Part shown: piece by piece, positions 41,590 to 44,460 of the stretch
Layout: each line of letters begins with the position of its first letter
Position numbering within the stretch: the stretch's first letter is position 1
From: Streptomyces sp. HNM0575
Lineage (GTDB): Bacteria > Actinomycetota > Actinomycetes > Streptomycetales > Streptomycetaceae
Assembly: GCF_012726265.1 (NCBI RefSeq)
Contig: NZ_JAASAG010000008.1
Location: forward strand, 124,001 to 188,000
Direction: 5' to 3'
Length of the DNA stretch: 64,000 nt
Program-made: the position numbers and the translations under genes
Notes under the pieces: generated by a model
Seen by the model: only the letters and a program-made list of their open reading frames with translations
Databases searched by the model: none
What the model was told of the DNA's origin: nothing

Positions 41590-41634
41590 GTCAACCACGG
41601 GTTGACGAGACCTCGGTGTCAACCTAAGGTTGCC
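41590..41634 (+). promoter_or_regulatory. Tandem palindromic operators overlapping the Clp-N gene start
   Basis: Site 1 (41590-41606) is gtcaacc, 3 bases, ggttgac: a perfect 7-base palindrome. Site 2 (41618-41634) is gtcaacc, 3 bases, ggttgcc: one mismatch. The centres are 28 bases apart. Site 2 ends two bases before the ATG and covers the only candidate ribosome site (aagg). Binding would block both transcription and translation. Self-binding by the downstream HTH protein is inferred. Confidence 0.75.
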
Positions 41635-41636
41635 AT

Positions 41637-42380
41637 ATGACGGATCCTCTTCCCATCGCCGGTCGGGTACGCCTGGACGACCTGATCGAAGCCATAAAGA
41701 ACCAGCACTCCGACGCGCTCGACCAGCTCTCCGACGCCGTGATCGCGGCGGACCACCTCGGGGACGTCGCGGACCATCTCATCGGCCACTTCGTGGACCA
41801 GGCGCGCCGTTCCGGCGCCTCGTGGACGGATATCGGAAAGAGCATGGGCGTCACGAGGCAGGCCGCGCAGAAGCGGTTCGTGCCGAAGGCGTCCGGCGAG
41901 GGCCCGGACCTCGACGTCGCTCAGGGCTTCAACCGCTTCACCGACCGCGCCAGGAAAGTCGTGGTGCAGTCACAGGCGGAGGCCCGCCGGGCCGGCCACC
42001 ACCAGATCAGCACAGGCCACTTGGTGCTCGGACTCCTCGGCGAACCCGAAGCGCTCGCGGGGCGGGCGATCGTCTCCCAGAAGGTGTCGCTCGACTCGGT
42101 GCGCGAGGCGGTGAACGGGACGCTGCCCGAGCGCTCCGGCGAGGAGGCGCCCGAGCTCATCCCGTTCGACGGGCAGACGAAGAAGGCGCTGGAGCTCACC
42201 TTCCGGGAGGCCCTGCGCCTCGGGCACGACTACGTGGGCACGGAGCACATCCTCCTCGCGCTCCTGGAACTCGAGGACGGTGAGGGGACGCTGACGGGTC
42301 TGGGCATCGACAAGACCGTCACCGAGGCGGCCGTCACCGCCGCGCTCGCGGCCAAGGGCGAGTCCCGCGACGGCGGTTGA
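41637..42380 (+). CDS. HTH protein fused to a double Clp N-terminal domain
   Basis: 247 residues. Residues about 1-80 contain a helix-turn-helix-like segment (GASWTDIGKSMGVTRQAAQKRF). The rest is a pair of Clp-N repeats (FTDRARKVVVQSQAEARRAGHHQISTGHLVLGLL and LELTFREALRLGHDYVGTEHILLALL), as in ClpC, but no AAA ATPase follows. It could read substrate/adaptor state of the Clp system and regulate its own gene or others. It is preceded by two operator-like palindromes. Known relatives are annotated only as Clp-N-domain proteins. Confidence 0.9.
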   Translation: MTDPLPIAGRVRLDDLIEAIKNQHSDALDQLSDAVIAADHLGDVADHLIGHFVDQARRSGASWTDIGKSMGVTRQAAQKRFVPKASGEGPDLDVAQGFNRFTDRARKVVVQSQAEARRAGHHQISTGHLVLGLLGEPEALAGRAIVSQKVSLDSVREAVNGTLPERSGEEAPELIPFDGQTKKALELTFREALRLGHDYVGTEHILLALLELEDGEGTLTGLGIDKTVTEAAVTAALAAKGESRDGG

Positions 42381-42437: not shown

Positions 42438-44138
42438 TCAGTAGACCGGCGGAGGCCCGAACGTGCCGCCGGTGCCGGGCCGTTGGTCACCTTCCGGAGC
42501 GTCCGGGCCGTCGCTCGGGGCGCCTGAGGAGTCCGCGCCGTCCGGGCGGTCCGGGGCCTCGGCCGTCTCCTGGGAGGGAGGGGCGGCCGGAGGCGGTGGA
42601 GTCCCGGGCGGGGCACCAGGCGGCATCGCCGGGGGCGCGGCCGGGGGAGGTCCTGCCGGTGGCGGCCCCGCGGGCTGCGCGGGCGGTGCGTACCCGGGAC
42701 CGGCGGGTGCGGGTCCGGCGGGTGCCGGGCCCATAGGCCCCGGACCGGCGGGCACAGGGCCGGGACCCGCGGGTGCCGGGCCCGGCTGGGGCGGGAAGTA
42801 CGGCTGAGGCTGGGGCTGGCCCTGCGGCGGCTGCCCGGGCACCGGCGCCCCGAACGGCGCGGCGGCCCCCGGCGCCGGAGCCCCGGGCATCGGCGCCCCC
42901 GGCATTGGCGCCCCCGGCATCGGCCCGCCCGCCACGGGCCCGCCGGGGACGGGTGCCCCCGGCATCGGCGTCCCGAAGGGCTGGGCGGCCCCGAAGGGCT
43001 GCGCCGCTCCGAAGGGCTGAGCCGCCACCGGCCCGCTCCCCGGCTGTGCCGCGACCCCGGGCCGGAGCGTCAGCACGATCAGCGTCACCGACCCGGCCAG
43101 CACGATCAGCAGCTGGAGACGGCTGAACGCCCCGGACACGGGCGCCACGTCGCCCAGTTCGAAGAAGGTCCCGGCGTCGGCGTAGGCCCAGAGAGTCGTC
43201 ACGGCCTGCGGCAGCAGCGCCACGGCGAGGCCCATCGAGAAGCCGCGGGCGGAGAGCGCACGCGTCATGGCCAGCACGGCGGCGGTGCCGCCCGCGGCGA
43301 TCAGCGTCAGCCAGGACCAGCCCGGTGAGACGTCGAGAAGGGTGAAGACGGTGCCTTCGCCGGTGAAGAGGCGGAGCCAGTACCCTCCGCCGGCCGTCGA
43401 TACGGCCTGGATGTTCCAGCCGATGCTGAACAGCGCCACCACGCCGAAGAAGACCGCCGTCACGGCCGCATGCGCCCCCGTCGGCCGCTGCGGCGACTCG
43501 CTCGGCAGCGGCGGCTCGTACGGCTGGGGCTGGAGGTGGGGCTGGAACTGGGGCTGGGGCGGCTGGGCGAACTGCGGCGGGGGCGGGAACTGCGGTGGCT
43601 GTCCGTACGGCTGCGCCTGCGGGCCCGGTGATGCCGACCGTGCGGGCTGCCCCGTCCAGGGACGGTTGCCCGCCGCCAGCACGATCCCGAGCACCAGGCA
43701 GAAGAGCACGATCCCGACCGCTCCCGCCAACGCGCTGTCCATGGACGGGTCGTCGGCGAAGCCGGGCAGCGCGTAGTAGGGCGAGGACTCGGAGTGCAGC
43801 CCCGCGTGCCAGATCACGGGGAGCCGCCAGGCGAGGGTGAGCACCGTCGTGGCGGCCAGCAGGCCGCCCGCCGTCCAGGCGCGGGTGAAAGCGGCGAAGG
43901 CCGCCGCGAGCTGGAGCAGTCCGAGGCCGATGTCGTCCGGGGTCGTGGCGGGGATGTCGGTCAGCTGGCCGGCGCGGGCTCCGGCGCCGAACGCTCCCGT
44001 CCAGACGTCCCAGGTGGTGGCGAAGTCCAGTTCCTGGATGTCGCGCAGCACCCAGATCCACGTGTGCAGTGCGAAGAGGAGACAGAAGATCCCCCCGGTG
44101 ATCCGTGCGCCCTTGCCCAGCACCCGCACCTGTGGCAT
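42438..44138 (-). CDS. Multi-spanning membrane protein with Pro/Gly/Ala-rich tail
   Basis: 566 residues from the ATG at 44138 (agggggg seven bases upstream). Four N-terminal membrane segments (residues about 10-160) are followed by a Pro/Gln-rich linker (QFPPPPQFAQPPQPQF), then about four more segments (230-380). A 190-residue Gly/Ala/Pro tail contains repeated PMPGAP and FGAAQP units. Function is not recognised; the layout is that of many actinobacterial envelope proteins. It is divergent from the cysteine desulfurase gene. Confidence 0.82.
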   Translation of the reverse strand: MPQVRVLGKGARITGGIFCLLFALHTWIWVLRDIQELDFATTWDVWTGAFGAGARAGQLTDIPATTPDDIGLGLLQLAAAFAAFTRAWTAGGLLAATTVLTLAWRLPVIWHAGLHSESSPYYALPGFADDPSMDSALAGAVGIVLFCLVLGIVLAAGNRPWTGQPARSASPGPQAQPYGQPPQFPPPPQFAQPPQPQFQPHLQPQPYEPPLPSESPQRPTGAHAAVTAVFFGVVALFSIGWNIQAVSTAGGGYWLRLFTGEGTVFTLLDVSPGWSWLTLIAAGGTAAVLAMTRALSARGFSMGLAVALLPQAVTTLWAYADAGTFFELGDVAPVSGAFSRLQLLIVLAGSVTLIVLTLRPGVAAQPGSGPVAAQPFGAAQPFGAAQPFGTPMPGAPVPGGPVAGGPMPGAPMPGAPMPGAPAPGAAAPFGAPVPGQPPQGQPQPQPYFPPQPGPAPAGPGPVPAGPGPMGPAPAGPAPAGPGYAPPAQPAGPPPAGPPPAAPPAMPPGAPPGTPPPPAAPPSQETAEAPDRPDGADSSGAPSDGPDAPEGDQRPGTGGTFGPPPVY

Positions 44139-44460
44139 CGCCACACCCCCCTGACCCTCTTATTCTTCGGCCCCGCCGCCTTCCGCGGCCCGGCACATCT
44201 GTGGGATTCCGTGGACCTGCCGGACCTCTGGAAGCTCCGGAACCTGTGGAATAACCGCCGCACGCCCCGGTGTTGACACGGGCTGTGTCCGGACCCGCCG
44301 CCACGGTAGCGGCGCCTGGAACATTAACAGCAGGGGCGGACGGCGCGGCCGGTGAGTCCGGGCGCCGGGCGGAGCGTCCGCGCACGTGACGTTCGCCGCC
44401 GTAGGCCTCCGTAAGCCGCCGTAAGCGGGTGCAGACGTCCGTACGTAGAATCGAGGGATC
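44139..44460. promoter_or_regulatory. Divergent promoter region
   Basis: No gene. The 322 bases contain direct gccgtaagc/cctccgtaagccgccg repeats near 44400-44430 and should hold promoters for both the membrane-protein and cysteine-desulfurase genes. No clear -35/-10 pair was recognised. Confidence 0.4.

Follow-up and report, generated by a model that had tools for sequence, protein, structure and literature searches.

The window analysed here, a stretch of 64,000 nucleotides from Streptomyces sp. HNM0575, carries at 41637..42380 on the forward strand a gene of the clpC2 type, whose 247-residue product is composed of dimerisation helices, a helix-turn-helix (HTH), a linker and two Clp_N repeats. 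The dimerisation helices (residues 13-58; 41673..41810, forward strand) are equivalent to part of the M. tuberculosis crystal structure 8ADA, the HTH occupies residues 63-81 (41823..41879, forward strand) and includes a predicted recognition helix, T73-F81 (TRQAAQKRF), and residues 98-240 (41928..42356, forward strand) comprise a ClpC-type docking domain with the two Clp_N repeats and the counterparts F98, F177 and E186 of the cyclomarin pocket. We read the gene as a single gene, as the long ORF downstream is convergent with it. This ORF (42438-44144, reverse strand) encodes hydrophobic stretches and a long Pro/Gly/Ala-rich repeat tail, while on the other side a gene for a type IV leader (prepilin) peptidase (PF01478; 40653-41417, reverse strand) is oriented divergently.

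A preliminary description of this DNA had recognised an HTH-like segment and two Clp-N repeats in the protein and no ATPase. Pfam bears out the second and third of these: it reports Clp_N in two stretches (PF02861, E 1.5e-21) and does not detect an ATPase domain. No HTH model of Pfam matched the window protein, and this part of the description is upheld by way of relatives and predicted helices: relatives match the HTH_23 and AsnC models weakly, below the cut-off; the window protein itself matches RelI, which is named as an HTH protein in PMC13284704; and helices are predicted at residues 63-69 and 74-80/81, the second with low confidence in the full-length structure model, where pLDDT falls below 50 over residues 72-97. 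A fold search with a model of the N-domain (pTM 0.38) returned no match at E<=0.001, the best-ranked weak ones being mostly HTH proteins. A sequence search of the PDB retrieved the ClpC2 structures 9P2P, 8AD9 (residues 96-239) and 8ADA (residues 1-72), and the docking domain is 52% identical over residues 97-219 to the ClpC encoded in the same genome. Two other identities were considered and set aside: that of a ClpC-type AAA+ unfoldase, given a length of 247 residues and the lack of ATPase modules by Pfam, and that of a RelI-type antitoxin, a short protein encoded beside a RelS toxin gene, given the same length, the Clp_N repeats and the reading as a single gene.

Immediately upstream of the gene lie two palindromes, neither assigned to a strand. 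Operator 1 (41590..41606; GTCAACCACGGGTTGAC) is a perfect palindrome of the form GTCAACC-N3-GGTTGAC, and operator 2 (41618..41634; GTCAACCTAAGGTTGCC), of the form GTCAACC-N3-GGTTGCC, departs from symmetry at one arm base. They are set 28 bp apart, start to start, and only the two bases AT separate operator 2 from the ATG at 41637, an arrangement that had been described beforehand and that agrees with the sequence and exceeds chance: a scan of the window at up to 2 mismatches gave 6 strand-matches, 4 of them operators 1 and 2, compared with a mean of 0.71 in 100 shuffled windows, none of which (0/100) reached 6. In the genome scan that the preliminary description had proposed for the site, the two operators are the sole matches to the symmetric motif at 0-1 mismatch throughout the 7.38-Mb genome. 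When 2 mismatches are allowed, the genome count barely rises above background (22 per strand in total vs 15 for a reversed control), and a regulon extending beyond the clpC2-type gene was rejected on these counts.

The two operators also contain what is predicted to be the promoter. The right arm of operator 1 supplies a predicted -35 element, TTGACG (41602..41607, forward strand), and the centre of operator 2 a predicted -10 element, TAAGGT (41625..41630, forward strand), at a spacing of 17 bp and with the -10 only six bases before the ATG. Among the 53 related loci with 28-bp operator spacing (see below), the TTGAC of the -35 is invariant and is followed only by A or G, and the T, A and T of a TANNNT -10 are present in 53, 52 and 53 loci, respectively. 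In the same 53 loci, the left arms of the operators, which lie outside these hexamers, vary about as little as the right arms. As read from the sequence, then, the operators are the core promoter itself, and we predict that transcription begins on or close to the ATG, with a start site at about 41637 and a leaderless mRNA.

To gauge conservation, we assembled 81 loci from the window and the best 80 of 312 relatives found; these 80 are mostly from Streptomyces, with others from Actinomadura, Saccharopolyspora, Planotetraspora, Antrihabitans, Actinomycetospora and Amycolatopsis. The idea of paired operators would have been refuted had the palindromes been missing upstream of orthologues, and the opposite was found: both operators are present in 81/81 loci at 12 or more of the 14 defining positions, with a spacing of 28 bp in 53 loci and 29 bp in 28, and with operator 2 ending 2 nt (76 loci) or 3 nt (5 loci) before the ATG. 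In a class-wide sample of loci with a ClpC2-type helix, two exact GTCA-N9-TGAC sites were present in 17/19, one further locus (L169) having one and the last (L168) none, with only a near match. In the protein, residues 62-72, 75, 76 and 78-82 are invariant in 81/81 sequences, as are D46 and R57, the residues of the dimer salt bridge. The counterparts of the cyclomarin-contacting residues are present in the window protein as Q96, F98, F177 and E186 (aligned with M. tuberculosis Q94, F96, F172 and E181); across the family, F98 and E186 are found in 81/81 sequences and Q96 in 72/81, while position 177, a Phe in the window, is most often Tyr (47/81).

The window gene is one of three sister systems in its own genome, the others being a zinc-finger fusion and a split HTH/Clp_N operon. 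A genome search with the window protein yielded the first of these, a 141-residue paralogue (L005:1270-1695, on contig C5) in which a ClpX-type zinc finger (PF06689, E 1.8e-17) is followed by the same HTH, and upstream of which lies the palindrome TTTGTCAGGGTCACCCTGACAAA. Relatives of this fusion were detected in 41/345 genomes of the class, representing 19/126 genera and 42 matches, of which 30 were covered by the upstream analysis (L128-L156 among the relatives). At least one exact GTCA-N9-TGAC site occurs within 200 bp upstream of the match in 30/30 of these loci and two in 26/30, for a total of 56 sites against 0.0 after base shuffling; counts for the other spacers, 3 to 19, ranged from 0 to 3. 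The operators of the zinc-finger fusions are of the GTCA(G/A)G-type N9 form and mostly paired, and the ClpC2 operator likewise reads GTCA-N9-TGAC (GTCA-ACCNNNGGT-TGAC); the last site lies 3 nt before the start codon in 8 of the 30 loci, as in ClpC2, and 5-26 nt before it in the other 22. The HTH is the sole part seen to be common to the ClpC2-type and zinc-finger proteins. In the genome of the window, the site of the zinc-finger paralogue is the only exact match to itself, with 35 matches at up to 1 mismatch vs 21 for a control, and a regulon for this paralogue was rejected on these numbers. At the cut-off used, the full-length paralogue was found in 0/80 other genomes of the genus (81 were searched, the own genome being a match); the other 26 matches in the genus cover only the zinc-finger part (query residues 8-67), lie in frames of 401-740 residues and are read as ClpX itself. 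From its architecture, we hypothesise that the zinc-finger branch may also serve as a decoy. Separately, in the proteins of loci L224 and L249 a weak match to the HTH profile precedes a CSFC...ICD(R/K)C segment similar to the ClpX zinc finger; these proteins have the opposite order of parts and may belong to a different family.

The split form (L003, on contig C1, from about 2100 down to 1138 on the reverse strand) consists of a short HTH gene and, after a gap of 6 nt, a gene with two Clp_N repeats; two GTCA-N8-TGAC palindromes 28 bp apart precede the pair, and 3 nt separate the second palindrome from the first ATG. A Clp_N-like gene follows the short HTH gene in 4/4 loci checked, at gaps of 2-36 nt, and a Clp_N-like coding sequence is found in 13/40 loci fetched later (described below), several with weak E-values. 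Other fusion partners of the HTH recognised by Pfam are DUF3887, a fusion already noted in PMC13284704, and PASTA domains (PF03793; L199 and L200 by Pfam, L201 by eye). L200 and L201 have palindromes of a GTCAGG-type N8 form close to the start; none was found in L199. The HTH-PASTA fusion may sense cell-wall ligands or PASTA-targeting compounds.

A wider survey of the HTH matched 77/118 genomes of the class and gave 81 loci, reduced to 70 after removal of duplicates. Within 420 bp ahead of the HTH-coding segment, these 70 loci contain 98 GTCA/TGAC sites of spacer 9, 14 of spacer 8 and 3 of spacer 10; a further 12 of spacer 16 may be arms of neighbouring sites, and the downstream stretches of the same loci contain no sites of spacer 8, 9 or 10. 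Of the 70 loci, 63 contain one or more sites of spacer 8-10, and the remaining 7 (L168, L186, L192, L197, L199, L202 and L203) have none in the 420 bp searched, although L197 has two sites farther upstream. The bases of the operator follow residues of the recognition helix. Where Ser comes after a conserved Gln, operator base 5 is G in 82/86 half-sites (86/90 with L155 reassigned from V), and where Ala takes that place, base 5 is A in 120/140; base 6 follows the residue pair two on, being G in 116/120 half-sites with Trp-Glu and C in 70/70 with Gln-Lys, and is blurred for other pairs (C 8, G 5 and T 3 for Gln-Gln). Fisher tests of this correspondence ignore relatedness, and with half-sites and loci that are non-independent their p-values overstate the evidence. 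Among 40 loci fetched after the rule had been seen, the same correspondence was recovered (Ser with G in 13/16 half-sites, Ala with A in 48/52), these half-sites coming from the 20/40 loci that have a spacer 8-10 site within 600 bp, the other 20/40 having none. Some of the site-less loci in both sets (7/70 and 20/40) we take to be doubtful family members.

Taken together, these observations lead us to read the window gene as encoding a Streptomyces orthologue of ClpC2 that would act as an HTH-read autorepressor over its own leaderless promoter and as a ligand-released decoy of ClpC, a reading to which we assign a probability of about 0.88. One dimer would bind each palindrome, reading its GTCAAC half-sites through the recognition helices of the HTH, and the two dimers would cover the -35 and -10 of the leaderless promoter and keep transcription off. 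The C-terminal part would reproduce the docking domain found in the ClpC unfoldase, such that a molecule targeting this docking domain would also fill the pocket of the repressor, whereupon the dimer would release the DNA and the gene would be strongly induced; the excess protein would then serve as a sponge that shields ClpC. The pocket filler is cyclomarin in mycobacteria and in Streptomyces could possibly be another natural product, a phage protein or an unfolded client. The operator pair, its overlap with the promoter elements, the dedication of the site to one gene, the conservation and the covariation of helix and operator are features of the Streptomyces locus as read from sequence. Autorepression, operator binding, release by cyclomarin and protection were demonstrated by others for mycobacterial ClpC2 (PMC10030653), and by orthology the Streptomyces protein would be expected to behave alike. 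The preliminary description had likewise envisaged a self-controlled switch; one in which Clp_N is the sensor fits and has been established experimentally for the mycobacterial orthologue (PMC10030653). Its further suggestion that Clp substrates are sensed is a proposal also made in the literature (PMC12913811, PMC10030653), with no direct proof seen. McsB and arginine phosphorylation, which the description had listed among its checks, were set aside for want of a lead. The signal known for ClpC2 is a cyclic peptide that fills the ClpC-type docking pocket, heat stress being a weaker inducer (PMC10030653).

Which part of the protein reads the DNA is where our reading diverges from the published one. 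For M. tuberculosis ClpC2, DNA reading was assigned to the Clp_N domain, through R185 and R189, and the N-terminal domain was regarded as a dimeriser; an R185A/R189A mutant bound DNA more weakly, the equivalent pair of exchanges in M. smegmatis caused 2.0-fold derepression, and the proposed site of DNA contact is near that of the ligand (PMC10030653). The corresponding arginines, R190 and R194, are conserved in 81/81 sequences of the window family, and an autorepressor of this alternative kind, in which the conserved arginine helix reads the operator and the N-terminal domain only dimerises, nevertheless appears improbable to us. The crystal of the N-terminal domain on which the published view draws (8ADA; PMC10030653) ends at V72, just before the predicted recognition helix, and GTCA-type sites persist in loci that lack one or both arginines: L194, with R/D at these positions, keeps GTCAACC-type spacer-9 sites, and L195, with S/G, has GTCA sites of spacer 10. 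HTH proteins that lack Clp_N share the operator geometry, and the operator bases follow HTH residues, which together argue that the HTH is the DNA reader. We infer from these sequence comparisons that specificity is provided by the HTH and not by the Clp_N domain. The effects of the R185A/R189A mutant nonetheless indicate that the Clp_N part does contribute to DNA binding, and its surface probably adds general affinity; this division of labour agrees with the partial loss of binding in that mutant and with the weak, little-specific binding of clpC2 operator DNA by ClpC1 (PMC10030653). A more radical alternative, that the palindromes bind another regulator or simply constitute a conserved strong promoter while the HTH protein acts elsewhere, gains something from the fact that the right arm of operator 1 and the centre of operator 2 furnish the -35 and -10 and would be conserved on their own account, but it is set against the binding established for the mycobacterial orthologue (PMC10030653). 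It also sits poorly with left arms that are about as conserved outside the hexamers, with the confinement of the site at 0-1 mismatch to this one place in the genome and with sites that change along with the HTH helix, and we regard it as very improbable.

The last alternative retains the autorepressor and changes its signal: the switch would mainly sense unfolded clients or heat, through holdase activity or titration as in HspR or HrcA, and drug binding would be incidental. Most Streptomyces presumably never meet cyclomarin. In mycobacteria, heat is a milder inducer of clpC2 and a result with casein was read as holdase activity, yet cyclomarin raised clpC2 mRNA 263-fold in M. smegmatis (PMC10030653). 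Analogues of ilamycin and ecumicin are reported, in a 2026 paper, to bind ClpC2 without raising its level (PMC12913811), a result that counts against sensing of this kind; it also implies that occupancy alone is no general trigger and thereby limits the decoy reading too. On balance, we consider a switch devoted chiefly to heat or clients unlikely.

Extending this reading beyond the window, we tentatively propose, at a little under even odds, that Actinomycetes possess a modular family of 'sentinel decoys', in which an HTH with a helix-to-operator code is joined to a copy of an unfoldase docking domain and represses its own gene via GTCA-N8/9-TGAC until the docking copy is occupied, this copy being taken either from ClpC, fused as in the window or split in a two-gene operon, or from the ClpX zinc finger. 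If this is true, the ClpX branch predicts new natural products or phage proteins directed against the zinc domain of ClpX, and whatever induces this branch would represent a novel type of ClpX-targeting molecule. Screens for Clp-targeting antibiotics could additionally use the self-repressed promoters as reporters. A bounded search of the open-licence literature found no paper on ClpX-zinc-finger/HTH proteins among the titles listed, and a search of this literature found none combining Clp_N, helix-turn-helix, Streptomyces and ClpC. Within such bounds, the ClpX-type branch appears to be new, as does the covariation of HTH and operator as a correction of the part of the protein to which DNA reading was attributed. 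The comparison of loci supplies a helix-operator code and, for the DNA-binding model in print, a correction that is open to test, and the window locus would extend a drug-sensing, drug-sponging autorepressor from mycobacteria to antibiotic makers.

Among known systems, a repressor is likewise tied to the Clp system in the CtsR-McsB-ClpC control of Bacillus, whose proteins are to our knowledge unrelated to the window protein. The N-terminal domain of ClpC/ClpC1 is the docking domain that the window protein copies; unlike these unfoldases, the window protein has no ATPase modules. RelI (Rv2664), the antitoxin of RelS-RelI, resembles residues 11-86 of the window protein (PDB 9SDC, E 3.2e-6; HTH profile E 5.8e-11) and has been linked to the HTH region of ClpC2 (PMC13284704). 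It differs from the window protein in lacking Clp_N and in neutralising a toxin, and according to PMC13284704 there was no sign of DNA binding by RelI, nor were inverted repeats found upstream. The name ClpC2 itself requires care in Streptomyces, since in one Streptomyces paper it denotes a Clp ATPase (PMC12607617).

The closest counterpart is mycobacterial ClpC2 (Rv2667 and its M. smegmatis orthologue). It represses its own gene via CGTCAAC-n5-GTTGACG located 1-2 nt before the ORF, a second copy lies upstream in many organisms and overlaps the -35/-10, and the transcript was considered likely leaderless (PMC10030653). Cyclomarin in the Clp_N domain releases this autorepression, after which ClpC2 soaks up the drug as a protective sponge, and a dimer salt bridge of the D46/R57 type has been described (PMC10030653). 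The window system shares with it the domain order, the HTH region, the residues of the Clp_N pocket and two GTCAAC-N5-GTTGAC operators over the -35/-10 of a leaderless gene, the last being a prediction in the window; it differs in belonging to another genus and in that operator reading was placed there in Clp_N and is placed here in the HTH. The combination of DNA-binding and Clp-N domains without an ATPase, which the preliminary description called unusual, is so only in part, for the arrangement is widespread in Actinomycetes and had already been described. Judged by sequence comparison, the window gene is the Streptomyces counterpart, or orthologue, of mycobacterial ClpC2, and the type of switch that it represents is one already known.
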